Origin: Bacteriovoracaceae bacterium
Lineage (GTDB): Bacteria > Bdellovibrionota > Bacteriovoracia > Bacteriovoracales > Bacteriovoracaceae
DNA length: 58,444 nucleotides
Assembly: GCA_029865945.1 (NCBI GenBank)
Contig: JARXAH010000078.1
Span: 1 to 58,444 of the forward strand
Direction of reading: 5' to 3'
The position numbers and the translations under genes are program-made. Below, piece after piece: positions 14,817 through 55,064 of the stretch; positions within the stretch are counted from its first letter, which is position 1; each line of letters opens with the position of its first letter. The notes under the pieces are model-generated. The model worked only from the letters and a program-made list of their open reading frames with translations, made no database searches and was not told where the DNA came from.

Positions 14817-15746
14817 CTACTTGATCAATCGCTTCGACTTACCAAAGCGAATAAGAAGTGCGTGAGGCAAGGCCAAAGAAGAGAGGACAATAATAATATA
14901 TTGAAAAATCCTCTGACTGAGAATTTCCTGATTTACAGAGTGCAGATAAAATAAAACAGGAAGTCCTGATAATGGGATTAACCAATAGGGCAGGATGGTT
15001 AGTGGAGAGGGAATTTTAACCGTAAGCAAGACATTGACAACATGCTTAACAGAGTGAATGAAACAAAAATAGATCCCAAAGGCAAACAAGGGATTAATTA
15101 AAATGAAGAGAGTTGATATCAACAAAGGCTCGAAAAACGTTATATCAGCTTCTTTTAAATTTTTAAAAAACCTTAAAAGTCCTAAAAAAGTGTGAATCAC
15201 AACAAAAAATAAAGAAATAGAACCTAAAACCAAAAAAATACTTTTGAGCTGAGTAAGATTAACTTCCGGTTGTATCCATTTCACGATTTGAAGGGTTTCT
15301 TTTTCGTGAAACATCATGGGAAGACAAAAAGGTAAGCTGACTCTTGCAAGGAACTCGATGACCTTAATTTTTACTGAAGAGGCACTATCTTGCATGTCAC
15401 TGTCCGCAAAGTGAAACAAGGAATAGCTCATAAAAAAAAGAAAACAGGCCGTTGGGTAAATGGGCCAAAGAAATAGAATAGGTATCGCAAATCCCATATA
15501 AATCAAAAGGCCAATCAACATTAGCTTCTTTGATGGCAGGATTCTTCGAATAATATAAACATCAAGCGCTCCATGGGGCATTCCTAAAAAAACGAGTCCT
15601 GTAATGAGGAGAGTGAGCCTGAAATCCAAGTTTGGAAAAAAATAACTTAAAGTAAGTGTGGAAACAAAAACTAAGACCGCAACCGTAGTTGCGATCTTAG
15701 TCCAAAGCGCTATTTTGAAATCATCGAAAGATGTCTTAACGAGCAA
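14817..15746 (-). CDS. blh: Beta-carotene 15,15'-dioxygenase (Brp/Blh family)
   Basis: An integral membrane enzyme of about 309 residues that splits beta-carotene into two retinals, the rhodopsin cofactor. Family histidine blocks are GMPHGALDVY, YSLFHFADSD, HSVKHVVNVL and a final LPHALLIRFG; these supply the iron ligands. At least eight hydrophobic segments are present. The open frame extends to a TTG at 15806, but a TTG at 15746 overlapping the rhodopsin stop gives a more normal N-terminus, and a GAAAAG sequence precedes it. Neither start is certain. Coupling to the rhodopsin gene (10-base overlap) fits co-production of opsin and cofactor. Confidence 0.9.
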   Translation of the reverse strand: MLVKTSFDDFKIALWTKIATTVAVLVFVSTLTLSYFFPNLDFRLTLLITGLVFLGMPHGALDVYIIRRILPSKKLMLIGLLIYMGFAIPILFLWPIYPTACFLFFMSYSLFHFADSDMQDSASSVKIKVIEFLARVSLPFCLPMMFHEKETLQIVKWIQPEVNLTQLKSIFLVLGSISLFFVVIHTFLGLLRFFKNLKEADITFFEPLLISTLFILINPLFAFGIYFCFIHSVKHVVNVLLTVKIPSPLTILPYWLIPLSGLPVLFYLHSVNQEILSQRIFQYIIIVLSSLALPHALLIRFGKSKRLIK

Positions 15747-16521
15747 GTTGCTTTTCTTCAATTTGAGAAGGAAGTGATCCGTCTTCTTTTGATTTTTGGT
15801 AAGCAATTGCGAAAATCATCACACCGTAAAGACATTTGGCCGTGATGTCAGCAATCGTGTAACCCACTTGTACGGCAACAATGGATCCTGGTGATTGAAG
15901 ACCGCCCCAAGTTCCGATGGCATAAGCGATCGGATAAAAACCCCATGTCGCAATAAGTAGGTAGCGAGTATTAGTAAAAAGTGTTTTTACCTTTTCGCTA
16001 GCACTTGAAAGTTGTGCGCCAAGTTGGCCCCATAAAACGACGAGGATGTAAATAAATGGGATCGTAGAAAGAATTCCCCAAAGATTTCTTGTTCCTAGAT
16101 CAGTGGAAATTTCCCCTGGATAACCAAGAGCGATCATCAGGACGGCAGCGATTACGAGATTTCTTAGCATCGGTCCCGTTGAACCTTTGCTGATGTTGAG
16201 AACAAGCACCAACTCAACAAGTAAAAGAGGTACTGTAAGTAACCAATCTACATAGCGGTAGGCATCATTAAAGGGTTTTCCACTTGGCTCATAAGAACCG
16301 TTGACGAGAGAGAATGCTCCTTCCCAACTCCCCATGATTCTGTAGTAGTGATAACCCGCGATGAGAACAACAAGCGAAGACACGATCATCGATACTCTGT
16401 ACTTAGCACCGATAATTTTTTGGGACATGACGAAAAATGCGAATGATCCAAACATGGCCGCAACTGCTAATGAAAGCATGTTGAATACCAATGAATACTC
16501 GCCGGCCGATAAACTAGGCAT
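15736..16521 (-). CDS. Xanthorhodopsin/proteorhodopsin-type proton-pumping rhodopsin
   Basis: A 261-residue seven-helix opsin. Retinal lysine is K229 (helix G, DITAK) with counterion partner D225. Helix C reads RYVDWLLTVPLLLVE, giving proton acceptor D92, T96 and donor E103, the DTE pattern of outward proton pumps. H58 in helix B matches the His that tunes D92. L100 sits at the spectral-tuning site and predicts green absorption. By my ungapped helix E alignment from the conserved Tyr (Y158), G149 sits where proteorhodopsin has Phe152; glycine there opens the carotenoid-binding fenestration of xanthorhodopsin. GYPGE before helix E also fits that clade. The ribosome binding site is a perfect AGGAGG. 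It acts in the inner membrane. Confidence 0.96.
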   Translation of the reverse strand: MPSLSAGEYSLVFNMLSLAVAAMFGSFAFFVMSQKIIGAKYRVSMIVSSLVVLIAGYHYYRIMGSWEGAFSLVNGSYEPSGKPFNDAYRYVDWLLTVPLLLVELVLVLNISKGSTGPMLRNLVIAAVLMIALGYPGEISTDLGTRNLWGILSTIPFIYILVVLWGQLGAQLSSASEKVKTLFTNTRYLLIATWGFYPIAYAIGTWGGLQSPGSIVAVQVGYTIADITAKCLYGVMIFAIAYQKSKEDGSLPSQIEEKQLAR

Positions 16522-16576
16522 GGAACCTCCTGTTAAAGTTTAGTTCTAGAACGTCTATGATCTTTGTTCATTAATC

Positions 16577-16582
16577 ATTATA
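16577..16582 (-). promoter_or_regulatory. Candidate -10 box of the rhodopsin-blh unit
   Basis: A consensus TATAAT on the minus strand lies 56 bases upstream of the rhodopsin ATG, preceded by a run of seven A. No good -35 hexamer is found at 16-18 bases (TTGTTA is 14 away). If real, rhodopsin and blh can be transcribed apart from the crt genes. Confidence 0.4.
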
Positions 16583-16632
16583 TTTTTTTCTAATTCTAAC
16601 AAGTAAGTTTAAGCAATTTTATTATTTATTAT

Positions 16633-17106
16633 TTATTTTTTGTTATTCTTGATTCGCGAATCTCGAAAGTACTTCCACGGCACAACTAACATACCAAGGC
16701 TGTGGGTATTCTCTTTTCCATGATTAGCGTGATGAACCTTGTGGGCAGTATTGAGAGCGACGAGGTACCAATGTTTCAATCTTGAAAAGAGAACAATTCT
16801 TCTATGAATGATAACCTCATGAACCAAAAAATAGGCCCCACCATAGGCCATAATACCAAAGCCTATGGACCCAAGGGCAGGAGCTCCCAAAAGACTATCA
16901 ATCAAGATGAAACAAAAACTTGGAATAGCAAAAACAAAAGCGAAGAAATCATTTTTTTGCCACTTTCTGTTTTTGTTTTGAACATGGTGATCTTGGTGAA
17001 GTGACCAAAGAAAACCATGCATAACATATTTATGAAGAAGGTAGGCTGCTAACTCCATGAAAAAAAAAGTAGAGATAAAAATAGCTATCCAGCTCAACCG
17101 GCCCAT
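16633..17106 (-). CDS. crtZ: Beta-carotene 3-hydroxylase CrtZ
   Basis: A 157-residue membrane diiron enzyme of the fatty acid hydroxylase superfamily. It has all four histidine boxes of CrtZ: HKYVMH, HQDHH, HEVIIHRR and HKVHH. It adds 3- and 3'-hydroxyls to beta-carotene, giving zeaxanthin via beta-cryptoxanthin. It starts on the last base of the crtYcd stop (TAATG), so the two are coupled. It is the last gene of the crt unit and lies 111 bases before rhodopsin. The product is a plausible light antenna for the neighbouring rhodopsin. Confidence 0.93.
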   Translation of the reverse strand: MGRLSWIAIFISTFFFMELAAYLLHKYVMHGFLWSLHQDHHVQNKNRKWQKNDFFAFVFAIPSFCFILIDSLLGAPALGSIGFGIMAYGGAYFLVHEVIIHRRIVLFSRLKHWYLVALNTAHKVHHANHGKENTHSLGMLVVPWKYFRDSRIKNNKK

Positions 17107-17864
17107 TAAAGATCCCTCCTCAGGGAGTAGGTGATTTTTGAAATCTCGTCTCTCATCACGACAAAAAGTATCAGCCCTTGGGAAACCATCAAGTTGGTCA
17201 CGAGGAAAAAGATGGCCTCTTCTAAGGGGAGAGGGCCTAAATTAAATCCGATCGTATAGGTGTCTGATATACTCCAAATCCCCCAAGAAATCGCCAGACC
17301 ATCTGCCATCCATAGGTAAAATGTCGTTATCAAGGTTGAAACAAGAAGAATTTTATGATTTGCGAGTAAATAATTTCCACCAAAAAACCATTGCAAAAGA
17401 ATCACGGGCATACCCCAGCTCAAGATAAGTCCTAAGTACCTACTTTTTTCAAAGTAAAGAAAGATGAGTCCTAAAAGAAACAAAAGGAGATAAGAAGAGA
17501 AAACTATTTTTTTTCTATTCATTTTCTGAACTATTTTCATGTTAGTAATTTTAGTAAGTGGAATTCTTTTTTGTAGTAAAAAACAAAAAAGGCCGGAGAG
17601 AATCGTTTGTAAAACAAAAAAACAGTACTCCTCTAATGGAACATAACCGATCGTTCCCAGAATTCTATCTTCTCCGTAAATCCACACTCCAGACTTAACC
17701 AAGTAATTATCCCAAGGTGCTGTATAAGTAACCGCTAGAAAAATGAGAAGAATAATTCCAAAGCGAAACTCTTTTTTATTGGGAAGATCACTTTTTTTAT
17801 ATAACGTGACTACAATCGTGAGTGGAATTCCTAAAAAAATGAGAAGGAATTGAAGATAAGTCAT
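17106..17864 (-). CDS. crtYcd: Lycopene beta-cyclase, CrtYc-CrtYd fusion type
   Basis: A 252-residue integral membrane protein containing two related halves, each with a PLEE motif (VPLEEYCFF in the first, LPLEEAIFF in the second). The first half also has YTAPWDNYLV...GVW.Y. This is the cofactor-poor membrane cyclase known from archaea, actinobacteria, myxobacteria (as separate crtYc and crtYd) and fungi. It is unrelated to the FAD-dependent CrtY common in proteorhodopsin cassettes. It cyclises both ends of lycopene to beta-carotene. It starts one base after the crtB stop. Confidence 0.93.
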   Translation of the reverse strand: MTYLQFLLIFLGIPLTIVVTLYKKSDLPNKKEFRFGIILLIFLAVTYTAPWDNYLVKSGVWIYGEDRILGTIGYVPLEEYCFFVLQTILSGLFCFLLQKRIPLTKITNMKIVQKMNRKKIVFSSYLLLFLLGLIFLYFEKSRYLGLILSWGMPVILLQWFFGGNYLLANHKILLVSTLITTFYLWMADGLAISWGIWSISDTYTIGFNLGPLPLEEAIFFLVTNLMVSQGLILFVVMRDEISKITYSLRRDL

Positions 17865-17865
17865 T

Positions 17866-18759
17866 TCATTTGTTCCCTTCCAAGTGATGATGAAGAGAAA
17901 AATGAAGTTCCTCTTTGTGGTTACTTGGCCTCCAAAAAAAAGAACTCTTAAGTTTCACGATGCACTTCAATGTCACCATCATTTTTTCTGCCAGGTTCAA
18001 GTAAATCCTACCTCCTGAAACATCGTAATTATTTTTTCGTATTTTTATTCCGATATGACGATAAAGCTCGCCAGCAAGAAAAATAACAAATCGTGCCCGG
18101 ATAGGGATGTAAGACAAACCCTCATAAGCACTTCGGTAATATCGGTCGGCCTTATCGAGGGCCTCTTGAATATAAATTTTTAGCTCTTGTGCACTTACTG
18201 TTTCCGATCCTGGAAGGTAGTATCTGCCTCTTTCAGCATCTTCTTTCACATCTCGGCAAATATTGGTTAATTGCATTGCGATACCGAGGTCGACGGCGTG
18301 AGGGTGAGATAAAGTGGATGACACCCCAATCAAAGGACACATCATCAGACCTACGACCCCCGCTACTCTGTAGCAATAAAGCATTAAATCTTCTTCGGAT
18401 GTGATTTCACCGCCGCGAACATCAAATTCGGCACCCTTGAGGAGTTCTTTTATATGTTCTCTTTTTACGCCCCAACTCTCGACCTCATTCATGAGTTGAT
18501 TAAAGGACGTTTGAAAAAGAGGATTTTCTAAGTCATTTAAAATAGAGGCAACAGCAAGGGCAGATTCTTCGTCTGGTAACTCATCGGCGCAATCATCAAT
18601 GAAGCGACAAAGACGATAGAGAGTCGCAATTTTTTTTAAATCTTTTTGAGAAAAAATCAAACTGGCAAAGTAAAACGACTTCCCGTGCTTCGACATCAGT
18701 TCTTCAGCATTGGACATAAGGTAGTTACGGGTTAACTCTTCGTAGGTTTGGTTATTCAA
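17866..18759 (-). CDS. crtB: Phytoene synthase CrtB
   Basis: About 297 residues of the squalene/phytoene synthase family. It joins two geranylgeranyl diphosphates to phytoene. Seen: HGKSFYFASLIF, the first Asp-rich motif DDCADE, FDVRGGE, and the second Asp-rich motif in NICRDVKEDAERGRYYLP. The frame is open to 18810, but the TTG at 18759 has GTGAGAG upstream and overlaps the crtI stop by eight bases, so it is the preferred start; a GTG at 18771 and an ATG at 18717 are alternatives. Confidence 0.92.
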   Translation of the reverse strand: MNNQTYEELTRNYLMSNAEELMSKHGKSFYFASLIFSQKDLKKIATLYRLCRFIDDCADELPDEESALAVASILNDLENPLFQTSFNQLMNEVESWGVKREHIKELLKGAEFDVRGGEITSEEDLMLYCYRVAGVVGLMMCPLIGVSSTLSHPHAVDLGIAMQLTNICRDVKEDAERGRYYLPGSETVSAQELKIYIQEALDKADRYYRSAYEGLSYIPIRARFVIFLAGELYRHIGIKIRKNNYDVSGGRIYLNLAEKMMVTLKCIVKLKSSFFWRPSNHKEELHFSLHHHLEGNK

Positions 18760-20296
18760 GTGAACTCTCACGCTCTGAAGAAGAAAATTTTTTTGGAATC
18801 GCAAACCCAACGTTAGTAAATTTATTTTTTAAATCGGGAACCATTTTTTCTAGCACTTTTGCTGAATTTAAAACGCCAGGGACACCAGCTCCTGGATGGG
18901 TGTTGGCACCAACAAAATAGAGTCCTTTGATATCTTCTGATTGATTATGAAAGCGAAAATATGCCGACTGACTCAAAGAGGGTTCTAGACCAAACGCGGC
19001 CCCTTTTTCGCTCTGTAATTGAGTCTCAAAGTAATCTGGAGTGACCGAAAAATCGACGGTCATGTTTTCTGTGAGGCATGGTAAATGGTTTTTTTCAAGC
19101 CACCCATAGATTTTATCTTTGTAGCGCTGCTCTTCGTCTCTCCAATTTGTTTTTCCCACTTTGTTTGGGACGGGAGAGAGAACATAAAAACATTCGTGAC
19201 CATCAGGTGCAAGTGAGGAATCCGTTCGCGTGGGAGCGTGTAAATAAAGGCTAAAGTCATCTGCCAGGATTTTTTTTGAAAAGATATCATTTAAGAGGCC
19301 TTTGTAGCGTGGCCCCATCAGTATCGTATGATGGGCGAGGCCTGGGTAGAGTTTTTTAGTTCCAAAGTAGGCGACAAATAAGCTCATCGAATGTTGTTTG
19401 AGTCCAAGGCGAAAGTCGCTATGTTTCGAGCGGTGCTTAGCATCAATCATATCGCGGTACACTCTGACAGGATCAGCATTACTTACGACTATGTCACAGG
19501 GAAAAATTCTCTCATCAGTTGTGAACACTCTTTTAACGCTGCCTCTTTCAATCTCAATTTTTTTAACCGAGGATTGGGTGTAAATCTTGGCACCTTTCAT
19601 GAGTAAAAGTTTTCTGAGCGCATCGACGATCGCCCCTGTTCCACCTTTGGCAAAATAGACTCCCCATTTTCTTTCTAGCCAATGAATAAGGAGGTAAATG
19701 GAGGTAATCGTAGTGGGATTTCCCCCGACAAGGAGTGGCTCAAAACTAAAGGCCATTCTGAGACGTTCATCTTTAATATATTTTGAAACGAGGCCATAAA
19801 CCGAGCGATAGTTTTGTAAACGAACCATATCAGGGATAGCCCTCATCATGGAGGAGATGGTATTAAAAGGCTCATCGGCGAGCTGAGTGTAGCCGACATC
19901 AAAAATAGCTTCCGAGTGTTTGGCCAGAAGCCGATAACCATCAACATCGGCAGGAGAAAGCGCTCTGACGTTTTCTATTATTCGGTCGTTATCTCCCACA
20001 TAATCAAATTGGGAGCCATCGTTGAAGATGATTCTATAGAAGGGATCGATCGCCATTAATTCATAAAAATCTTTAGCGTCTTCACCGAGGAGCTCAAAAA
20101 GCTCGCTTAAGAGATAGGGAGCAGTAATGACAGTTGGCCCTGCATCAAAAGTGAAACCGTCTTTTTTGAAAACGGCGGCTCTTCCACCGATGTCCTCTCT
20201 CGCTTCCAAAATTGTAACTTCATAGCCCTTCTTGATGAGCCTGACCGCTGAAGCCAGACCGGCAAAGCCAGAACCAATAACGACTGCCTTGTTCAT
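18752..20296 (-). CDS. crtI: Phytoene desaturase CrtI
   Basis: A 514-residue FAD enzyme. The N-terminal dinucleotide fold is VVIGSGFAGLASAVRLIKKG with the following EAREDIGGRA. The C-terminal block GLYFVGANTHPGAGVPGVLNSAKV is the CrtI signature. It converts phytoene to lycopene by four desaturations. It overlaps crtE by four bases (ATGA) and crtB by about eight. The length is normal. Confidence 0.95.
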   Translation of the reverse strand: MNKAVVIGSGFAGLASAVRLIKKGYEVTILEAREDIGGRAAVFKKDGFTFDAGPTVITAPYLLSELFELLGEDAKDFYELMAIDPFYRIIFNDGSQFDYVGDNDRIIENVRALSPADVDGYRLLAKHSEAIFDVGYTQLADEPFNTISSMMRAIPDMVRLQNYRSVYGLVSKYIKDERLRMAFSFEPLLVGGNPTTITSIYLLIHWLERKWGVYFAKGGTGAIVDALRKLLLMKGAKIYTQSSVKKIEIERGSVKRVFTTDERIFPCDIVVSNADPVRVYRDMIDAKHRSKHSDFRLGLKQHSMSLFVAYFGTKKLYPGLAHHTILMGPRYKGLLNDIFSKKILADDFSLYLHAPTRTDSSLAPDGHECFYVLSPVPNKVGKTNWRDEEQRYKDKIYGWLEKNHLPCLTENMTVDFSVTPDYFETQLQSEKGAAFGLEPSLSQSAYFRFHNQSEDIKGLYFVGANTHPGAGVPGVLNSAKVLEKMVPDLKNKFTNVGFAIPKKFSSSERESSLE

Positions 20297-21366
20297 TTGG
20301 TAATCTCTCCAGCAAAACTCATTTTTTCAGATACCCGTGATCTCTCTCGAATGGGGGCCAGGATCTTTTCGATGAGGGAATTTACTAAACGAAATAAAAT
20401 TCTGTTGCCCTCAAAAAGCGAGTGTGAGCGTAAGTCATCCACTCGTTGCTCAAGGTGATTTAAGCAAAATTCAAGATGATGACTCTCGTTAAAAAGCTTT
20501 TCAATAATCTGGAAATCGTTTTCGTCGGTATCAGCTCTTTTCTTCCTTAAAATACGGGCAAGGATATCGAAGTCCCCTGGATTTCTCTCAAGATAGTTGA
20601 CGACTAAGAAGCTCACCTTGCCTTCCTTGATATCGCACCCGCGCTCTCCTCTTTGTTTGTTGCCATAAAAATCGAGGATATCGTCTTGAATCTGAAAGAT
20701 GTGTCCAAGTTGAAAGAAAATGTTCTCAAGAGAATGGATAAATTCTTTTGAAACTCCAGCAATGATTCCAACTCCAATGGCCAGTCCAGCAAAAAGAGAG
20801 GACGTTTTTCCAGCTATACAGTCAAGGTACTGCTGATGAAGGTTGTGGTGAGATTGAAGTTTATTTAATTCAAACTCATCAACTTGGCCTGCAACGACAC
20901 GGGAGCTCATCACGGTGAAAAGATGGAGTAGTTCGTTTTTAGAGCTGAGATTACTTTTAATGAGCTCTTGAGGGGCGATGATTAAGAGAAAGTCACCGAG
21001 ATTAATGGCCTGCTCGGGCCCGTATTCTCTCCAAGCAGTAGGCCTTCCTCGTCGTATTTCGTCTCCGTCTTGAAGGTCATCATGAATGAGAGTTGCATTG
21101 TGGAGAATCTCGCAAGTCACGGCCCAAGGGAGGACCAAGGCCAGATCAAGATTCATGGATAGGGCAAGATCACGAATAAACATAGGTCTAAGCATCTTAC
21201 CTTTTGACTCAAAATGCTTAAGAGCCATCGTACGCAGCCTTCCCTCAGAATTTCTCTTGATCGATTCTTCAATGATACGACTCACTTCGCCCAGAAATTC
21301 ATCCGGACCACAGGCAGTGGCGAATCTTGCGGCAAATCTAAAGTCTGAATCTATAAGTGAATTCAT
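20293..21366 (-). CDS. crtE: Geranylgeranyl diphosphate synthase CrtE
   Basis: A 357-residue trans-isoprenyl diphosphate synthase. The first Asp-rich motif is DDLQDGDEIRRGRPTAW and the second is QIQDDILDFYG; both bind Mg-diphosphate. It builds the C20 precursor for phytoene. The C-terminal tail of about 90 residues is long for the family. It is the first gene of crtE-crtI-crtB-crtYcd-crtZ. It could also supply other isoprenoids, but the operon makes carotenoids the likely purpose. Confidence 0.92.
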   Translation of the reverse strand: MNSLIDSDFRFAARFATACGPDEFLGEVSRIIEESIKRNSEGRLRTMALKHFESKGKMLRPMFIRDLALSMNLDLALVLPWAVTCEILHNATLIHDDLQDGDEIRRGRPTAWREYGPEQAINLGDFLLIIAPQELIKSNLSSKNELLHLFTVMSSRVVAGQVDEFELNKLQSHHNLHQQYLDCIAGKTSSLFAGLAIGVGIIAGVSKEFIHSLENIFFQLGHIFQIQDDILDFYGNKQRGERGCDIKEGKVSFLVVNYLERNPGDFDILARILRKKRADTDENDFQIIEKLFNESHHLEFCLNHLEQRVDDLRSHSLFEGNRILFRLVNSLIEKILAPIRERSRVSEKMSFAGEITK

Positions 21367-29552: not shown

Positions 29553-30092
29553 ATGGCCTTAAGCGATCAGATAAAAAATAAAATGGAAGCGATACGCTAC
29601 CAATTTCCCACTGAGCAGGCGCTCTTGATTCCACTACTGCACGCGATTCAAAAAGAGCGTGGATGGATTTCTAAAGAAGCGATGGTGGAGAGTGCAGAAT
29701 TTTTGCATTTACCGCTCGCAAAAGTTCAAGAAGTGGTGACGTTCTATACGATGTTCAATCAGGAACCCGTGGGAAAAGTACATCTGCAACTTTGCACCAA
29801 TATTAGTTGCTGGCTCAATGGTTCAGAAAAATTATTACACTGTTTAGAAAAACGTTTAAACGTGGGCTGCGGCGAAACCACTAAAGATGGAAATTATACA
29901 CTATCTGAGGTTGAGTGCTTGTGCGCCTGTGGAACGGCGCCTGTACTACAAGTGAATGACGAGTACTATGAAAACTTATCAGAAGTGAAACTTACCCAAT
30001 TAATGGATGAGTTGGACGCAAAGTTAAAAACCAGTGAAGGAAATGTGATTGGGAAATATGTAGATAGCTATCCGAGAGGGCCTAAGGCATGA
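29553..30092 (+). CDS. nuoE: NADH-quinone oxidoreductase subunit E
   Basis: A 179-residue 24-kDa-type subunit with a thioredoxin-like 2Fe-2S (N1a) domain. The ligands are in LCTNISCWL and ECLCACGTAP. Part of the NADH-input module with NuoF and NuoG. It overlaps nuoF by four bases (ATGA). Confidence 0.95.
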   Translation: MALSDQIKNKMEAIRYQFPTEQALLIPLLHAIQKERGWISKEAMVESAEFLHLPLAKVQEVVTFYTMFNQEPVGKVHLQLCTNISCWLNGSEKLLHCLEKRLNVGCGETTKDGNYTLSEVECLCACGTAPVLQVNDEYYENLSEVKLTQLMDELDAKLKTSEGNVIGKYVDSYPRGPKA

Positions 30093-31423
30093 GCGCAATA
30101 AATTTTCCTAATGAGAATAGAATTATAACCAAGCACTTAGAAAAACCAGATACTCATTTAATTGGCCATTATGAAAGCGTCGATGGTTACGTGGCCGCCA
30201 AGCGTGTGCTCAATGAAATGAGTGGTGATGGGGTCGTTGATGAAGTGAAGAAATCCAATTTGCGGGGACGCGGCGGTGCGGGATTTCCCACTGGGATGAA
30301 GTGGTCTTTTATGCCTAAAGATCCGAAAGATGCGAAAGGAAATCCCAAACCAAAATACTTAGTTTGTAATGCTGATGAAGGCGAGCCCGGAACTTTTAAA
30401 GACAGTTTAATCATGAACCGTTTTCCTCACATGCTCATTGAAGGCATGATTATTGCGGGACATGCGATTGGATCTGAAGTTGGCTACATTTATGTGCGCG
30501 GCGAATACGTAAAAGAAATTATATCAGTAGAGAAGGCAATCGATGAGGCGCGGGCCAAAGGTTATTTGGGAAAAGATATTTTTGGAATTAAAGGAAAAAA
30601 TTTTGATATTTTTCTTTACCGAGGAGCGGGAGCTTATATTTGTGGTGAAGAAACAGCACTCTTAAATAGTTTGGAAGGAAAGAGGGGAGAGCCAAGGCTT
30701 AAGCCACCTTTCCCTGCTCAGGTTGGTGCTTTTGGAATGCCAAGTTGTGTAAACAATGTAGAAACTTTTGCGTCTGTACCTTTTATTATTCGTGAAGGTG
30801 CGGCCAAGTTTGCAGCGATGGGAACGGAAAAGGCCGGAGGAACAAGGCTTTTTTGTGTCTCAGGGCATGTCGAACGTCCTGGTGTTTATGAACTACCGAT
30901 CAATGTAAATTTATTAGATTTGATTGAACATTGCGGAGGCGTTCGCGGCGGCCGCGCACTCAAGGCCGTGATTCCTGGAGGAGCTTCAGCACCGATGCTC
31001 ACTGCCAGTGAATGTAACGTGGCGATGGATTTTGATAGTCTTGCGAAAGCAGGAACCATGGCCGGATCGGGCGGCGTGATTGTCATGGATGAAACGGTTT
31101 GTATTGTCGAGGCCGCCAGCATTTTACTTAAATTTTATGAACATGAATCTTGTGGCCAATGTTCCCAGTGCCGCGAAGGAAGTCATTGGCTTGCTCGCAT
31201 GTTTCACCGAATTGAAAACGGTGGAGGCACCAGTGCAGACCTTGATTTCATAAGTGAAATTTGTGGAAACATGGCCGGGCAAACGATTTGTGCCTTTGCA
31301 GACGCCGTCACTGGCCCTGCATTATCCTCCATTAAAAAATTTAGACATGAATTCGAAGAGCACATCCGTTTGGGCCGATGTCCACACAAACACGTATTAG
31401 TTGCGCAACAAGTGGAGGCGTAA
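30089..31423 (+). CDS. nuoF: NADH-quinone oxidoreductase subunit F
   Basis: A 444-residue 51-kDa-type subunit that oxidises NADH. FMN/NADH site: GRGGAGFPTGMKWSF and GAGAYICGEETALLNSLEG. The 4Fe-4S N3 ligands are in ESCGQCSQCREG, with a distal Cys at GQTICAFAD. Located between nuoE and nuoG. Confidence 0.96.
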   Translation: MSAINFPNENRIITKHLEKPDTHLIGHYESVDGYVAAKRVLNEMSGDGVVDEVKKSNLRGRGGAGFPTGMKWSFMPKDPKDAKGNPKPKYLVCNADEGEPGTFKDSLIMNRFPHMLIEGMIIAGHAIGSEVGYIYVRGEYVKEIISVEKAIDEARAKGYLGKDIFGIKGKNFDIFLYRGAGAYICGEETALLNSLEGKRGEPRLKPPFPAQVGAFGMPSCVNNVETFASVPFIIREGAAKFAAMGTEKAGGTRLFCVSGHVERPGVYELPINVNLLDLIEHCGGVRGGRALKAVIPGGASAPMLTASECNVAMDFDSLAKAGTMAGSGGVIVMDETVCIVEAASILLKFYEHESCGQCSQCREGSHWLARMFHRIENGGGTSADLDFISEICGNMAGQTICAFADAVTGPALSSIKKFRHEFEEHIRLGRCPHKHVLVAQQVEA

Positions 31424-31428
31424 ACAAA

Positions 31429-32970
31429 ATGAAAACTGAACTTAATTATCAAAGTTATAAAAAACCTGTTATCGATACACCGCCTGCTACACCTGAAGCG
31501 AAACCCACGCCAAAAATTACCATTGATGGCGTCGTGATTCCTTTTCAGGCAGGCGATACTATTATGCAAGCGGCCGAGCGAGCCAACGCCGCCGCAGAAA
31601 TTCCAAGATTTTGTTACCATCCAGGACTTCCCATCGCGGGCACGTGCCGAATGTGTACGGTGGAAGTAGAAAAAATGCCAAAACTTATGACGTCGTGTTC
31701 GACTCCGGCCGCCGATGGCATGATCGTTCATACGCAAAGTCCGAAAGTGAGAAAGAGTCGCACCGGTGTGATGGAATTTTTATTGGCCAATCATCCACTA
31801 GATTGTCCAGTTTGTGACAAGGCCGGTGAGTGCGAGCTTCAAGATTACAATTTTGAGTACGGCCCATCGACGTCGAGATTTGTAGAAGAAAAAAGAGTTT
31901 GGGACGACGCCACCACAAAAAAATTATCAGATAAAGTAACGCTCAATATGAATAGGTGCGTTCACTGCGAACGCTGTGTTCGTTTCACAGATGAAGTGAC
32001 CAAGACCAATGACTTAGTGATGAAAAATCGCGGTTATAAAAAAGAGCTGAGCGCAACCGATGAAGAGCGCGGCCTTTGGAATGATTATCAAGGATGCTTG
32101 ACCGATTTTTGTCCGGTGGGTGCGCTTACCTTTAACGATTTTCGTTTTCATAAACGGGTTTGGTTTTTAGATAAGAAGAAGAGCATTTGTGATCAATGCT
32201 CGAAGGGTTGCAATATTGAAGTGCACAGCGATCAAAATGTGGTCGAGCGCTTGATGCCGGTATTTAATGAAAGTGTCAATGGACACTGGATGTGTGATGA
32301 GGGAAGAGTTTCTTATCATACGGCGATGAATCCCCTAAGAATTGTATCGCCGCTACTTAAGAGTAAGGGTGCAAGCAAAGACGCCGCACTAGTATCAACT
32401 ACTTGGGAATTTTTGTTTCAGCAATTAAACGTAGTGATCAAAAGTTCAAAAAAAATTCTTTTCATTATTGGAACAGACGCCAGTTGTGAAGAGGCCGAGC
32501 AAGTAAAAAACTGGTCTAGTAAATTGGCCGGAAGTTCGGTCGTTTATTTTAATGGTGTCAATGGGGTGCAAACATCCAAAGATGACGGCAAACTCGATCA
32601 CTTACTACGCATGAAAGATAAGACATCAAATACCAGGGGCGTTGAGGCGCTTGGAATTCAACCAATTAATCCCAATCAGGTTTCAGACGCTGACCTAGTG
32701 ATTTATTTGCGCGCTGGTCGCGCTCAACTACCCATCGAATTTAGTTCTTCTGCGCCTTGGTTGCTCTGGGGTGTTTGGAATTTAGAAGAAGTAAAATCTG
32801 TACAGCAAAAATTAAATGTAGTCGGGCTCATTCCTGGTCTCATGACCATGGAAAAAGATGGCTCCTACGTTAACGAATCACAATTGAAACAAACAGTGAC
32901 CACCACGATTCAAACTACGGGACACTGCTTAACGGTGAATAAAGTTATTGAGGGACTATGGATCAAATAA
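31429..32970 (+). CDS. nuoG: NADH-quinone oxidoreductase subunit G, shortened
   Basis: About 513 residues. The N-terminal part has the 2Fe-2S N1b ligands (CYHPG...GTCRMC...SC), HPLDCPVCDKAGEC (N5), and CVHCERC with CLTDFCPVG (N4). CDQCSKGC and a later WMCDEGR match the extra cluster N7 motif. The C-terminal molybdopterin-oxidoreductase-like domain is much shorter than usual; E. coli NuoG is about 900 residues and most others about 680 or more. The end still has TMEKDGSYVNESQL, which corresponds to the usual EGT-F-N block, so an internal loss is likely. Start at ATG 31429, six bases after the nuoF stop. Confidence 0.93.
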   Translation: MKTELNYQSYKKPVIDTPPATPEAKPTPKITIDGVVIPFQAGDTIMQAAERANAAAEIPRFCYHPGLPIAGTCRMCTVEVEKMPKLMTSCSTPAADGMIVHTQSPKVRKSRTGVMEFLLANHPLDCPVCDKAGECELQDYNFEYGPSTSRFVEEKRVWDDATTKKLSDKVTLNMNRCVHCERCVRFTDEVTKTNDLVMKNRGYKKELSATDEERGLWNDYQGCLTDFCPVGALTFNDFRFHKRVWFLDKKKSICDQCSKGCNIEVHSDQNVVERLMPVFNESVNGHWMCDEGRVSYHTAMNPLRIVSPLLKSKGASKDAALVSTTWEFLFQQLNVVIKSSKKILFIIGTDASCEEAEQVKNWSSKLAGSSVVYFNGVNGVQTSKDDGKLDHLLRMKDKTSNTRGVEALGIQPINPNQVSDADLVIYLRAGRAQLPIEFSSSAPWLLWGVWNLEEVKSVQQKLNVVGLIPGLMTMEKDGSYVNESQLKQTVTTTIQTTGHCLTVNKVIEGLWIK

Positions 32971-34028
32971 TGTGGATTGCTCTTTTTTTAAAGATTGCCG
33001 TAGTACTTGCCTGTTGTATGGGATCAGTTCCTTTTTTAGTTTGGTTTGAGCGGCGTGGATCTGCTTGGATTCAAGGACGAGTGGGCCCAAACAGAGTGGG
33101 GCCGTTTGGATTATTGCAATCGCTCGCAGACGTTCTTAAATTTTTTTTCAAAGAAGATTTTGCTCCCAAGAACGCATCGCGAATCTATTATTATTTAGCA
33201 CCTATGATTGCCCTCATTGCCCCCCTGGGTGCACTGACTATGATTCCCTTTGGATCTTACGTGGAAGTTGCGGGACAAGTGATCAACTTACAAATTGCAG
33301 AAGTTAATGCTGGGGTTTTATTTATACTCGCCTTCGCTGGCCTTGAAGTTTATCCCATCATCTTGGCGGGTTGGGCCTCAAACAATAAATATTCTGTATT
33401 CGGAGCGCTAAGGGGATCTTCCCAAATTGTTTCTTACGAAATTTCCATGGGGCTTGCCCTCGTCTCCATGTTGCTCGCTTATGGAACCTTAGATTTACAC
33501 AGCATGGTAGAGTGGCAAAGTAGTGCCGCAGGAATGTGGGGTTGCGTGATGAATCCCATCGGCGCACTCATTTTTTGGATTTGTACTTTTGCAGAAACCA
33601 ATCGACTTCCTTTTGACTTACCTGAAGGGGAAGCAGAAATCGTGGCCGGATTTCACGTTGAGTACGGCTCGATGAAATTTGCGCTCTTCTTTCTTGCCGA
33701 GTATGTGGCGATGATTATGGCCAGTGCGCTTCTCGCAACCGTCTTCTTCGGTGGTTACAGTTTGCTTCCAGGATTTTCCCACTTGGTGGGTTGGGTGAGT
33801 TCAGCGCAAGGATGGCCTCTTCAAAATGTGAAAGCGTTTTTTGAATTCGCGAGTCTCTTTCTTAAAGTTGCCTTTTTTATGTTTGTCTTCGTTTGGGTGA
33901 GATGGACCCTTCCTCGTTTTCGATTTGATCAGCTTATGGATTTGGGATGGAAAATTTTATTTCCATTGGCCATGTTGAATTTAGGTTATATGGTTGCGCT
34001 CGTCACTTATTTGGCGAGATCGCATTAG
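32958..34028 (+). CDS. nuoH: NADH-quinone oxidoreductase subunit H
   Basis: A 356-residue membrane subunit at the quinone channel. It has VWFERRGSAWIQGRVGPNRVGPFGLLQSLADVLKFFFKED and ETNRLPFDLPEGEAEIVAGFHVEYGSMKFALFFLAEY, both diagnostic. Overlaps nuoG by 13 bases. Confidence 0.96.
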   Translation: MDQIMWIALFLKIAVVLACCMGSVPFLVWFERRGSAWIQGRVGPNRVGPFGLLQSLADVLKFFFKEDFAPKNASRIYYYLAPMIALIAPLGALTMIPFGSYVEVAGQVINLQIAEVNAGVLFILAFAGLEVYPIILAGWASNNKYSVFGALRGSSQIVSYEISMGLALVSMLLAYGTLDLHSMVEWQSSAAGMWGCVMNPIGALIFWICTFAETNRLPFDLPEGEAEIVAGFHVEYGSMKFALFFLAEYVAMIMASALLATVFFGGYSLLPGFSHLVGWVSSAQGWPLQNVKAFFEFASLFLKVAFFMFVFVWVRWTLPRFRFDQLMDLGWKILFPLAMLNLGYMVALVTYLARSH

Positions 34029-34060
34029 TTAAATAGAATAGAAAAGATTGGGAAAAAATT

Positions 34061-34579
34061 ATGGGAAAAATAAATACCGTCAATGTTTCCAAAAAATATA
34101 CCTTTAAAGAGAGCCTTTATTTGGTGGCGATTATTCAAGGAATGATGATTACCTTGAAAAGATTTTTTGAAGGTTTTGTCCTACATAAAAAATTCACCAT
34201 TATGTACCCGGAAGAACGCCGCGATTATTCTCAGCGTTTTAGAGGTGAGCATTTCATAAGTATAGATAACAATAAAACGGAAAATTGTACTGCTTGTTTC
34301 CTTTGTGAAACCGTTTGTCCTGCTGAGTGCATTCACATTGTGGCCGATGAACGAGAAGATGATCAAAATTTATATGGCGTCAAAAAAGAAAAAAAACCTT
34401 TGAGTTTCGATATCGATGCGCTTCGCTGCTGCTTTTGCGGTATGTGTGAAGAAGCATGTCCAAAAGATGCGATTAAGTTGTCTCGAAACTATGAAATGTC
34501 AGTTTTGAAACGTGACGACGCCATTTATGATCTCGATCACTTGAAGCGCGAAGTGAAAGGCCTAAAAGGAAGAGGTTGA
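34061..34579 (+). CDS. nuoI: NADH-quinone oxidoreductase subunit I
   Basis: A 172-residue 23-kDa-type subunit with two 4Fe-4S (N6a, N6b) motifs: CTACFLCETVCP and CCFCGMCEEACP. It bridges the NADH module to NuoB. Ends three or four bases before nuoJ. Confidence 0.95.
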   Translation: MGKINTVNVSKKYTFKESLYLVAIIQGMMITLKRFFEGFVLHKKFTIMYPEERRDYSQRFRGEHFISIDNNKTENCTACFLCETVCPAECIHIVADEREDDQNLYGVKKEKKPLSFDIDALRCCFCGMCEEACPKDAIKLSRNYEMSVLKRDDAIYDLDHLKREVKGLKGRG

Positions 34580-34583
34580 TTTT

Positions 34584-35129
34584 ATGGACTTGTCGATGAC
34601 ACTGGAAGATATTTTTTTGTTTGCTTTTGGGCTGGTGGCCGTTGGTGGATCATTGGTCATGCTATTTGCAAAAAATCCCATTACGGTGGCCCTGGGACTT
34701 TTGAGTGTGCTGCTCGCCACCGGATGTACTTATGGTTTAATGGGTGAACACATGGTGGCCACTCTTCAAATTGTGGTTTACGCCGGTGCGATTATGGTTC
34801 TCTTTGTCTTCTCCATCATGCTTTTAAATTTAAATAACCTCAAATTTGATCTCGCATGGCCAAGGGTTTTATTTTGGGCAAGTGTGGCGGGGTTGGCAGC
34901 GTTTTTTGCCTTAATCTGTATAAACGTACTTTATTTTTTTCAATCCAAGATGGCGCAACATCAGTGGGGCGAATTTACGCCTGAAAAAGTTTCGGAGCTT
35001 GGTGGTAACGCGCGCGTATTGTCCCAGGCCCTTTTTTCACAAAATTATTTTTCCTTTGAATTAGTTTCCATCCCTCTCTTAATTGCGTTGGTGGGGGCCG
35101 TGGTATTAGCGAAACGAAAACTAAATTAA
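34584..35129 (+). CDS. nuoJ: NADH-quinone oxidoreductase subunit J
   Basis: A 181-residue membrane subunit with five hydrophobic segments. The conserved third-helix block is LQIVVYAGAIMVLFVFSIMLLNL, whose pi-bulge links quinone reduction to proton pumping. Confidence 0.93.
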   Translation: MDLSMTLEDIFLFAFGLVAVGGSLVMLFAKNPITVALGLLSVLLATGCTYGLMGEHMVATLQIVVYAGAIMVLFVFSIMLLNLNNLKFDLAWPRVLFWASVAGLAAFFALICINVLYFFQSKMAQHQWGEFTPEKVSELGGNARVLSQALFSQNYFSFELVSIPLLIALVGAVVLAKRKLN

Positions 35130-35176
35130 CTAAATTAATGTAAACGAAATTAAACTAACAACAAGGTAGTCCTTCT

Positions 35177-35488
35177 ATGTTTTATATTGATCATTCTTCC
35201 TTTGTGCAAATTTTGGCAGCGTTTCTTTTTTGTATCGGATTGCTCATTGTCATTTTTAGAAGAAATTTAATTGTGATGCTTATGGGTGTGGAATTATTGC
35301 TCAATGCGGCCAATCTATCGCTGATTGGTTTTTCACATCACTTCTCTATGATTGACGGTCAAATTCAGGCCTTCTTTGTGATTACCCTTGCGGCCGCGGA
35401 GTCTGCGATCGGACTTTCCATCTTGGTTAATCTCTATCGCCATATCGGAAGTATTAATACCTCAGACACTCAATTGATGAAAGGATAA
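35177..35488 (+). CDS. nuoK: NADH-quinone oxidoreductase subunit K
   Basis: A 103-residue membrane subunit with three helices. Conserved Glu in LMGVELLLNAANL and in LAAAESAIGLSILV lie on the proton path. Normal length. Confidence 0.95.
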   Translation: MFYIDHSSFVQILAAFLFCIGLLIVIFRRNLIVMLMGVELLLNAANLSLIGFSHHFSMIDGQIQAFFVITLAAAESAIGLSILVNLYRHIGSINTSDTQLMKG

Positions 35489-35500
35489 CAGGTTTTAAAT

Positions 35501-37432
35501 ATGGATTCACAAATATTATTAGCAATCATTCTTTTGCCACTCATGGGAAGTTTCATTACTGGAACGCTTTCCTTTTTTGAAAGAACTGAAGAATCGCCAA
35601 AAGCTAAATCCTTAAGATCAGGACTTATTGCCTCCATGGCCATTGGGTTGGCCTTTGTCATTTCTCTCTATCAATTTTATTTGCTCTCTCAAACTCAATT
35701 TGTCTCTGGCCCGGTTTTTTTAAAGTGGAATTTAGGAGAGTGGCTTGCCTTTGGCCCATTGAAATTTTCAATTGGACTAAGATTGGATCACATCAACTCA
35801 GTGATGTGTTTAATTATTACGGGAGTGGGATTTCTCATTCATCTTTTTAGTATTGGCTACATGGATCACGACCGAAGTGCCTCTCGTTATTTTAGTCATT
35901 TAAATTTATTTTGTACGGCGATGCTTATTCTTGTTCTCGGAGATAGTTTTCCCCTTATTTTTTTAGGATGGGAAGGCGTGGGAGTTTGCTCATACCTTTT
36001 GATTGGCTTTTGGTATCAAGAAAAAGAAAAACAAGCGGCCGCCCTCAAGGCCTTCATCTTAAACCGAATTGGCGACGTGGGATTTTTAATCGGAATGTTT
36101 TTACTCTACAAAGAAACGGGATCTCTCGAGTGGGGAAATTTATCGGGACAATCTCTCTCTCAATCAAGTGCGTTTTGGATTGGACTTGCTTTTTTTGTGG
36201 CCTGCACCGGAAAATCCGCTCAGATACCTTTATTTGTATGGCTCCCCGATGCCATGAGTGGCCCAACACCCGTTTCGGCCTTGATACACGCGGCCACCAT
36301 GGTGACGGCCGGTATTTATTTACTCCTTAGGTTGCAAGGAATTTTATTATTGTCTCCTGACCTTATGATGATCATTGCCTGGGTTGCGGCGGTGACATCA
36401 CTTATGAGCGCCACGATTGCAGTTACTCAAAATGATATTAAGAAAATTTTGGCCTACTCAACTGTTTCGCAACTGGGTTTTATGTTTGTGGCCATTGGCG
36501 TTGGCGCTTTTTCCACCGCGCTTTTTCACGTAACGACCCACGCCTTTTTTAAAGCGCTTTTGTTTCTCGGAGCAGGATCTGTGATTCATGCCTGCCACGG
36601 CGAACAAAATGTTTTAAAAATGGGAGGACTTAAAAAATATTTACCTCACACTTACTTAACGATGCTGGTGGGATCACTTGCGCTCGCAGGAATTCCGCTA
36701 ACAAGTGGGTTTTTTAGTAAAGATGAAATTTTACATTCCATCATTGCCCTTCCTTATGGGGGGCTCAGCTTGTATTTGGTCATGACAGTGACGGCAGGAC
36801 TCACCGCCATTTATAGTGTGCGGCTTATTACCCTTACATTTTTAGGAAATTACCGCGGCCCAACTGACGCGCAAAATTTGCCTCACGAATCCGGACCATG
36901 GATGACGATCCCGCTCTATGTCCTTGCGGGCCTTGCCCTTTTTGGTGGTTGGATGGGTGCTCCTCATATTTTCCATTTGCACCACACTTTCAATGCGTGG
37001 ATTGGGCAGTCGCTGCAAATTTTAGAATTACCAGAATTGGGTGTTCATTGGAATGTTTCAGAATTGATACCAATGCTGATTTCATCGATCATCGCCGTTA
37101 GCTTCTTTTGGTTTTTCGCCGTGGTGTTTCGCAAATTTACTCAGCTTGATCAGTGGTGGAAAGGATCTAAAGTGTTTATCCAGTTGGCGTCTTCTAAATA
37201 TTTAGTGGATGAAATTTATCACCTCATTATTGTTAGGCCTATTTATATGGCCTCTAAATTTTTGGCCAGAGTCCTTGACCGCGATGTGATTGATCGAAGC
37301 GTCGATGCCAGTGGCGGTCTGGTAAGTAAAGTTGGAGGGAGACTTCGCATCCTTCACAGTGGTGATTTGCAAGACTATGGGGCGATGATTGTGATTTTGC
37401 TTGGGCTTATTGCCAGCACGTTTTTTCTTTAA
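35501..37432 (+). CDS. nuoL: NADH-quinone oxidoreductase subunit L
   Basis: A 643-residue antiporter-like subunit at the distal end of the membrane arm. It has FLGWEGVGVCSYLLIGFWY (key Glu), VWLPDAMSGPTPVSALIHAATMVTAGIYLL (lysine/histidine proton path) and the long C-terminal lateral helix. The stop codon touches the left arm of a long palindrome; the next gene begins 200 bases later. Confidence 0.95.
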   Translation: MDSQILLAIILLPLMGSFITGTLSFFERTEESPKAKSLRSGLIASMAIGLAFVISLYQFYLLSQTQFVSGPVFLKWNLGEWLAFGPLKFSIGLRLDHINSVMCLIITGVGFLIHLFSIGYMDHDRSASRYFSHLNLFCTAMLILVLGDSFPLIFLGWEGVGVCSYLLIGFWYQEKEKQAAALKAFILNRIGDVGFLIGMFLLYKETGSLEWGNLSGQSLSQSSAFWIGLAFFVACTGKSAQIPLFVWLPDAMSGPTPVSALIHAATMVTAGIYLLLRLQGILLLSPDLMMIIAWVAAVTSLMSATIAVTQNDIKKILAYSTVSQLGFMFVAIGVGAFSTALFHVTTHAFFKALLFLGAGSVIHACHGEQNVLKMGGLKKYLPHTYLTMLVGSLALAGIPLTSGFFSKDEILHSIIALPYGGLSLYLVMTVTAGLTAIYSVRLITLTFLGNYRGPTDAQNLPHESGPWMTIPLYVLAGLALFGGWMGAPHIFHLHHTFNAWIGQSLQILELPELGVHWNVSELIPMLISSIIAVSFFWFFAVVFRKFTQLDQWWKGSKVFIQLASSKYLVDEIYHLIIVRPIYMASKFLARVLDRDVIDRSVDASGGLVSKVGGRLRILHSGDLQDYGAMIVILLGLIASTFFL

Positions 37433-37560
37433 CCTGGTTCGGGAAATCCGTCGGTCTGCTGTGTCGCAAGAACCGCTCTCTTCCTTGCGGCTTGGTTTTC
37501 ACCAAGCCTCAGTCGGTCGCGATTCTGCTCCTAGCATACCTCGGATTTGCCGAACCAGGT
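37432..37560 (+). repeat. Long palindromic element between nuoL and nuoM
   Basis: Arms 37433-37450 and 37542-37559 match as inverted repeats at 17 of 18 positions, and one more pair is possible outward. Inside are CGCAAG/CTTGCG (37465-37489) and a perfect eight-pair hairpin GGCTTGGT-TTTC-ACCAAGCC (37489-37508). GTCGGTC occurs twice (37450-37456 and 37512-37518). The whole folds as a closed multi-branch RNA. Confidence 0.65.
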
Positions 37561-37632
37561 ATTTTTACCAATACGGTTCTTATGTTTTTCACCGGACTGA
37601 GGTTATTTAGAAGTGAGAAGGAATTTTAAATT

Positions 37633-39222
37633 ATGAATACAAGTAATACAGGCGTAACAGAGCAATTAATGATTTCACAAATCATGTTGCCTTACTTGCT
37701 TCCTTTTTTTATTTTGCCCCTCTTAGGAATTATCATTAATTTCTTTCTTCCCAAAAATAATGGTAAAAATTTTGGCCTTGCCCCTTGGATTATTTTTATT
37801 TCCCTTCAAGCGGTCATGCTTGGAATAAGTGCCTACCTCCACTTCGATTTTCTTCCTGCGCTCAAGTTAACCTTCGCCGCTGGGTTTAAGTGGAATTGGC
37901 TTCCGTCCCTTGGAATTTATTTTGATGTGGGGATTGATGGCCTCGCTAGTACTTTTCTCTTTTTTTCTTCGCTCACTTTTTTACTCATTAGTTTATTTTT
38001 GGGGAAATGGTTTGTTCAAGAGAAGGGGAGAGTTTATTTAAATTCTTTTTACGTAGTGATCCTATCCGTGAATGGAACTTTTTTATCGCAAAATTTAATT
38101 CTTTTTTATTTGTTTTGGGAATTAGTGCTCCTTCCCATTCTTGTCATGGTAGCTGTTTACGGCCACAAAGATTACCGCGCTGCTCTCATGAAATTTTTTA
38201 TTTTTACTTTTGCGGGTTCAGTGGCGATGCTATCGGCCTTCATTGCCTTGGCCGTTTTAAATTATCAGCATTTTGGTTTTTGGGAATTTGATTTTACTAG
38301 TCTGGGAAGAGTCATGGCCCTATCCACACCTACATCTGTCTTTTTTATGGTGGCCTTCTTTATTTCTTTTGCTATCAAGGGCCACGTGTTTCCGTTTCAT
38401 ACTTGGCTTCCCCAGTTATATGAAAAAAGTCCACTCCCGGTTATTTTTCTCATTACCGGTGTTCTCTTTAATATGGGGGCCTATGGGTTTTTGAGATTTT
38501 TTCCTAACTACTTTTTGTGGCCAATGACGCAAACAGCGTGGGGCGATTTTTTTAGCTACCTTGGTGCCTTTGGAGTGGTCTACGGTGCGTGGGTGGCGCT
38601 TGCGCAAACAGATGCAAGGCGAATGCTCGCTTATTTATCGGTGTCTCACATGGGATATTTTGTTATGGCCATTTTTGCCAAAAATGGTTTTGCGCTCTAC
38701 GGAAGTTTAATTCAGACTTGCGTTCACGGATTAGTGGCCGTTTCCCTCCTTGCCATTTTTGTGCCGCTTATCAATTCTGAAACGAAATCAGAGGCGTCGT
38801 CGTCCTATCTTCTTTCACAGTGGCGCGGCCTTGCGGCCAAATACCCTTGGTTTACTACGTTTGCTTTTATTTCCACTATGGCGGCCCTTGCGCTCCCTGG
38901 AACCCACGGATTTGCGGGAGAGTTTTCCATTTTGTTTGGATCATTTCAGGAAAAAGTAGGGCCAACACTGGTTGCGCTAGTCGGAGTGGTGCTGGGTGCC
39001 CTCGTGCTACTTAAAATGTTTCAGCAGCTTTTTTGGGGTGCGTCTTCTGAAGGAACAAGCGAGAAAAATATGGTGGTTTCATTTTCGAAACGCTATCTTC
39101 TCGCAGCGGCCATATCTGTGATTCTTACCATTGCTATTGGAATTTATCCTCAGCCTTGGTTTGCTCCCGGACAAACTGGACTTTTAAAATTTGTTAATAC
39201 CCTTAATTTAACTCAGCGGTGA
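37633..39222 (+). CDS. nuoM: NADH-quinone oxidoreductase subunit M
   Basis: A 529-residue antiporter-like membrane subunit. Key Glu is in YLFWELVLLPILVMVAVYG. The proton-path block is HVFPFHTWLPQLYEKSPLPVIFLITGVLFNMGAYGFLRF. It follows a 200-base gap holding a palindromic element. Confidence 0.94.
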   Translation: MNTSNTGVTEQLMISQIMLPYLLPFFILPLLGIIINFFLPKNNGKNFGLAPWIIFISLQAVMLGISAYLHFDFLPALKLTFAAGFKWNWLPSLGIYFDVGIDGLASTFLFFSSLTFLLISLFLGKWFVQEKGRVYLNSFYVVILSVNGTFLSQNLILFYLFWELVLLPILVMVAVYGHKDYRAALMKFFIFTFAGSVAMLSAFIALAVLNYQHFGFWEFDFTSLGRVMALSTPTSVFFMVAFFISFAIKGHVFPFHTWLPQLYEKSPLPVIFLITGVLFNMGAYGFLRFFPNYFLWPMTQTAWGDFFSYLGAFGVVYGAWVALAQTDARRMLAYLSVSHMGYFVMAIFAKNGFALYGSLIQTCVHGLVAVSLLAIFVPLINSETKSEASSSYLLSQWRGLAAKYPWFTTFAFISTMAALALPGTHGFAGEFSILFGSFQEKVGPTLVALVGVVLGALVLLKMFQQLFWGASSEGTSEKNMVVSFSKRYLLAAAISVILTIAIGIYPQPWFAPGQTGLLKFVNTLNLTQR

Positions 39223-39229
39223 TCATGTT

Positions 39230-55037: not shown

Positions 55038-55064
55038 AGTAATCCTCTCCAATATTAGTGCCTA

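Follow-up and report, generated by a model that had tools for sequence, protein, structure and literature searches.

A rhodopsin gene that adjoins a set of carotenoid genes raises the question of whether the encoded pump would work on retinal alone or with a carotenoid antenna supplied from the same locus. We addressed this question in a 58,444-nucleotide stretch of a Bacteriovoracaceae genome (contig JARXAH010000078.1; the window), in which an original prediction had placed a rhodopsin at 15736–16521, read it as a proton pump and put crtZ next to it. The open reading frame list and profile searches revealed seven same-direction genes on the minus strand (14817–21366), in the order crtE-crtI-crtB-crtYcd-crtZ-rhodopsin-blh. 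These are a crtE-type polyprenyl (GGPP) synthase (20293–21366; PF00348, 177 bits), the phytoene desaturase crtI (18752–20296; TIGR02734, 574 bits), the phytoene synthase crtB (17866–18810; PF00494, 177 bits), a lycopene beta-cyclase of the fused CrtYc-CrtYd type (17106–17864; TIGR03462 in two stretches, 130 bits), crtZ, a predicted beta-carotene 3-hydroxylase (16633–17106; PF04116, 40 bits), a predicted xanthorhodopsin-family proton pump of 261 amino acids (15736–16521; Pfam Bac_rhodopsin, 125 bits) and blh, a beta-carotene 15,15'-dioxygenase for retinal synthesis (14817–15806; TIGR03753, 141 bits for a cut-off of 95; also PF15461). The blh frame is a mechanical call whose 5' end overlaps the rhodopsin gene, and its true start is uncertain. 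The five crt genes overlap or almost abut, and 111 bases separate crtZ from the rhodopsin. The run is an apparent operon, presumably co-transcribed, and by its gene content it should provide both zeaxanthin and retinal.

Both the frame and the residues named in the original prediction were borne out. In alignments to solved chains, D92, T96, L100, E103 and K229 pair with D94, T98, L102, E105 and K233 of Kin4B8, a rhodopsin that binds zeaxanthin experimentally and for which energy transfer has been measured (PMC12308411, PMC13093654). K229 is the retinal lysine and D92/T96/E103 (DTE) is the pump triad; D225 pairs with Kin4B8 D229, and H58 is also among the residues listed. These equivalents, together with placement in the xanthorhodopsin clade, support the predicted function as a proton pump. 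A sensory or other non-proton-pumping role appears very improbable, given the DTE triad and retinal lysine, the position of the protein inside the proton-pumping xanthorhodopsin clade, and the lack of a transducer gene among the adjoining frames scanned.

In a maximum-likelihood tree of 100 rows, the rhodopsin grouped with Kin4B8 in a clade of 10 rows (support 100/94), and this clade was sister to the Thermus rhodopsin TR (96/87). It thus lies on the xanthorhodopsin side with Salinibacter xanthorhodopsin (SrXR), Gloeobacter rhodopsin (GR), TR and Kin4B8, and the proteorhodopsin-type sequences of Bdellovibrionota form the outgroup. The named sequences in this clade bear the labels Bacteriovoracaceae, Bdellovibrionaceae, Bdellovibrio sp., Oligoflexia or simply Proteobacteria. 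Among solved structures the best match was Kin4B8 (348 bits, about 64–65% identity), followed by SrXR (304 bits, 58%), psXR (282 bits, 56%), TR (276 bits, 52–53%) and GR (269 bits, 53%), while the nearest sequences of all belonged to genomes within its own family: G097 (95%), G028, an Oligoflexia MAG (89%), and G008 (85%). The AlphaFold model (pLDDT 89, pTM 0.86) has seven helices and a B-C beta hairpin as in xanthorhodopsins (strands E70-73/E76-79). It matched TR, psXR, apo Kin4B8 (7ytb) and zeaxanthin-bound Kin4B8 (8i2z) with tied Z scores of 34.7–35.3 (rmsd 1.2–1.5 for the two Kin4B8 structures), and SrXR and GR with Z scores of 34–35. By sequence kinship the protein is classified as a xanthorhodopsin.

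The antenna proposal had originally centred on G149 as the glycine that opens a fenestration for a carotenoid antenna. The alignment kept G149 at this position, opposite Kin4B8 G153, SrXR G156 and GR G178, where green proteorhodopsin has Phe (PMC9151804). A tryptophan introduced there in GR (G178W) blocks carotenoid binding (PMC9151804), and a bulkier residue at Kin4B8 153 blocks zeaxanthin (PMC12308411). We nevertheless demoted the glycine as key evidence, since it occurs in 82 of about 102 rhodopsins retrieved (~80%) and is therefore real but weak, and not distinctive. Judged from sequence, the stronger argument for an antenna is the rest of the pocket together with the carotenoid pathway.

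Besides G149, the pocket pairs with Kin4B8 as T153/T157, N184/N188, Y187/Y191, Y200/Y204, A201/A205, T204/S208 and W205/Y209 (this rhodopsin first). Y200 is the conserved tyrosine (Kin4B8 204, SrXR 207), and T204 supplies the polar Ser/Thr at Kin4B8 position 208, where Thr is also found in KR1 and EinA29G6, both zeaxanthin binders, whereas xanthorhodopsin and GR have Met (PMC12308411). In the alignment, Y200, T204, N184 and Y187 match the pocket expected to take a hydroxy-carotenoid. Position 209, which is Tyr, Asp or Glu in the hydroxy-xanthophyll subtype (Kin4B8, KR1, EinA29G6), is occupied by W205, an aromatic residue with an indole NH, as in TR. In Kin4B8, binding drops to 2% with S208A, and energy transfer falls from about 40% to about 18% with Y209F (PMC12308411). 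Set against these mutants, two of the three key features are kept here (the glycine and the polar residue at 208), and the third is Trp rather than Tyr. This difference, and the family-wide default of the glycine, could be taken to mean that the pump runs on retinal alone, with the glycine simply inherited and zeaxanthin from CrtZ serving as a membrane photoprotectant. We consider this quite unlikely: the closest sequences retain the polar Thr at position 208 along with Y200, N184 and Y187, zeaxanthin binding has been shown for a relative whose pocket is almost the same (PMC12308411), and TR, with the same Tyr-Ala-Thr-Trp set (YATW), pairs with salinixanthin in an antenna complex (PMC9728251), so that Trp at position 209 is compatible with carotenoid binding.

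Gene content pointed to the same pigment. As originally proposed, the gene adjacent to the rhodopsin encodes a probable CrtZ-type hydroxylase; it is about 41% identical, over about 86% of its length, to a Pantoea stewartii / P. ananatis protein and is the sole PF04116 match in the genome. The P. stewartii homologue adjoins crtB, a phytoene desaturase, crtY and a polyprenyl synthase; its record says only sterol desaturase family protein, and we take it, as established knowledge, to be CrtZ. With crtE, crtI, crtB, crtYcd and crtZ contiguous, the locus has the gene content for a carotenoid with 3-hydroxylated beta-rings. Profile searches found no CrtW ketolase in the genome, which is 96% complete; of its two FA_desaturase proteins, one scored 15 bits against the CrtW model and the other nothing, for a cut-off of 350. 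We therefore rejected a keto-carotenoid antenna.

A broader alternative is that the antenna is some other carotenoid, such as beta-cryptoxanthin, a glycosylated or 2-hydroxylated derivative of zeaxanthin, or a keto-carotenoid. In its favour, Kin4B8 can also function with the 2,3-dihydroxylated carotenoid nostoxanthin (PMC12308411), and our search of the nearly complete genome covered some of the modifying enzymes, not all. We nonetheless regard it as unlikely, because no CrtW turned up in the genome, neither FA_desaturase protein scores as a ketolase, and the gene run has no modifying enzyme besides CrtZ.

A zeaxanthin-antenna proton pump whose pigment genes all lie alongside it is thus the best explanation of the locus, and one that we hold to be likely. 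The antenna-equipped pump first envisaged gains support from the whole pocket, the complete pathway in the gene run and the kinship with Kin4B8, from which we infer pigment binding, energy transfer, pumping and co-transcription. In the proposed scheme, CrtE, CrtB, CrtI and the CrtYcd cyclase would produce beta-carotene. Part of it would be cleaved by Blh to retinal, which would bind at K229, and the remainder would be hydroxylated by CrtZ to zeaxanthin. A zeaxanthin beta-ring would then enter the opening at G149 beside the retinal ring, with the carotenoid held by Y200, T204 and their neighbours at one end and by N184/Y187 at the other. Zeaxanthin would take up blue light and hand the energy to retinal, which would drive outward proton pumping via D92/T96/E103. 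The locus may represent a self-contained light-energy module. The same window also contains other proton-motive machinery, namely a membrane H+-pyrophosphatase (52977–55052) and a run of complex I (nuo) genes (about 30089–40750).

On the minus strand we identified a 16-bp hairpin followed by a U-run (15668–15703), which lies 35 nt downstream of the rhodopsin stop codon, within the 5' portion of the blh frame. It recurs in G097 and G008, where a T-A pair is replaced by C-G, and in G028, where the U-run is interrupted; hairpins of other sequence with a T-run occur at a similar place in two further loci (L003 and L004). The element is likely a terminator or attenuator, and as an attenuator it may allow much rhodopsin and little Blh to be made. 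At other loci as well, hairpins resembling terminators often follow rhodopsin genes. A promoter scan gave no excess over shuffles.

Rhodopsins were found in 8 of 129 family genomes and in about 30 of 369 genomes of the phylum; among the eight, G120 carries a proteorhodopsin type and G066 a broken copy. The latter (L088; G066:C13:124600-125043) has three internal stops in a genome that is 98% complete, and we read it as a sign of loss. CrtZ was likewise present in 8 of the 129 genomes, including all four that have a YATW rhodopsin (G000, G008, G028 and G097); this 4/4 overlap has a p of 6e-6, a nominal value only, given the linkage of the genes and the relatedness of the genomes. Those four and three genomes without a rhodopsin (G022, G123 and G124) have a CrtZ at least 56% identical to that of the window, and G087 has a more distant one. 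The three genomes with crtZ and no rhodopsin indicate that CrtZ can occur independently of the pump, a point in favour of the retinal-only reading weighed above.

Pocket and cluster order are shared by G097 and G008. G028 shares the pocket, with crtE-I-B-Y-Z and the rhodopsin-blh pair on different contigs, indicating that the two modules can separate. Identity to the NuoF of the window was 72% for G097, 71% for G087 and 52% for G008, whereas the corresponding rhodopsin values were 95%, 70% and 85%. As the two sets disagree, the cluster does not follow this housekeeping gene, which suggests, at the level of sequence identity, that it was transferred within the family. A foreign base composition was ruled out (cluster GC of 0.37–0.43, resembling the flanks), and plasmids gave only three distant relatives (no more than 45% identity). 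No relative was confirmed in viral contigs.

A published suggestion holds that polar pockets take 3-hydroxy carotenoids and hydrophobic pockets 4-keto carotenoids (PMC12308411). We compared position 208 with pathway genes in 16 Bdellovibrionota xanthorhodopsin genomes, nine with Ser/Thr and seven with Met; G206, which has Asp, was left out. A CrtW-like ketolase (more than 200 bits, below the strict curated cut-off) was found in five of the seven Met genomes (G176, where the frame has one stop, G177, G179, G322 and G353) versus one of the nine polar ones (G087). CrtZ without CrtW was found in four of the nine polar genomes and in none of the seven Met genomes. For these 16 related genomes, Fisher tests gave p values of 0.035 for crtW and 0.15 for crtZ. 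This pattern agrees with the published suggestion, and the association is no more than suggestive, with small numbers, several incomplete genomes and related rows. It could reflect two antenna systems in Bdellovibrionota whose pocket and pathway co-evolved, one with a polar Kin4B8/Thermus-type pocket (Thr/Ser 208) and CrtZ/zeaxanthin, the other with a hydrophobic YMM pocket and CrtW/keto-carotenoids, the Thr-Trp pair being a second natural way to hold a 3-hydroxy ring; we put forward this possibility tentatively, at slightly under an even chance.

Two loci of the phylum, L005 (G281) and L006 (G280), encode rhodopsins 91–92% identical to Kin4B8 with Ala instead of Gly at the fenestration. The family with these Kin4B8-like rhodopsins also has a CrtI-CrtB fusion, with the phytoene desaturase at the N-terminus, which we read in three genomes (L134, L135 and L137 in G280, G281 and G282; frames of 813–834 amino acids); L140 (G285) has a similar frame length. 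No paper on such a fusion was found among those searched.

Which carotenoid partners Kin4B8 in vivo has been stated to be unknown (PMC12308411). As a close Kin4B8 relative with its own zeaxanthin pathway, the cluster offers a concrete genomic prediction of the native pair of pump and pigment for this clade, and lineages of the phylum that combine the other pocket with a ketolase serve as a natural control, making the published pocket rule testable. Novelty through lineage, on the other hand, was rejected: antenna pumps of predatory-type lineages had been thought little described, but Kin4B8 is already assigned to freshwater Bdellovibrio (PMC13093654). Both the mechanism and its Bdellovibrio-lineage setting are already known, and the locus is a well-equipped further member of the Kin4B8-type antenna pumps, not a new system.

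Kin4B8 itself (7YTB, 8I2Z) shares with the protein studied here the clade, the phylum, the pump residues, the fenestration Gly and the equivalents of N188, Y191, Y204 and A205, and differs in having Ser208 for Thr204 and Tyr209 for Trp205. It also differs in genomic setting: here crtZ and the whole pathway lie alongside, whereas neither CrtZ nor CrtW turned up in G280 and G281, the genomes compared whose rhodopsins are nearest to Kin4B8. Thermus TR (5AZD), of the sister clade and the top structural match (Z 35.3, tied with others), has the same TM6 residues Y, A, T and W at Kin4B8 204, 205, 208 and 209 and the fenestration Gly. In contrast, its identity is 52–53%, the equivalents of N184/Y187 are Ala/Leu, and the antenna demonstrated for it is exogenously added salinixanthin; genes for thermozeaxanthin are present in Thermus (PMC9728251). 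Salinibacter xanthorhodopsin (3DDL) and GR (6NWD) are alike in fold, pump residues and fenestration Gly (G156 and G178), but their 208/209 positions are hydrophobic (Met-Ala and Met-Leu) and they use 4-keto-carotenoids. Finally, the second Bdellovibrionota xanthorhodopsin clade (L013, L017, L024, L027, L028, L038, L079, L081 and L099) has the phylum, the fenestration Gly and the pump residues in common with the rhodopsin of the window, and is set apart by its hydrophobic YMMF/YMMM pocket and by the CrtW-like ketolase in five of the seven genomes examined.
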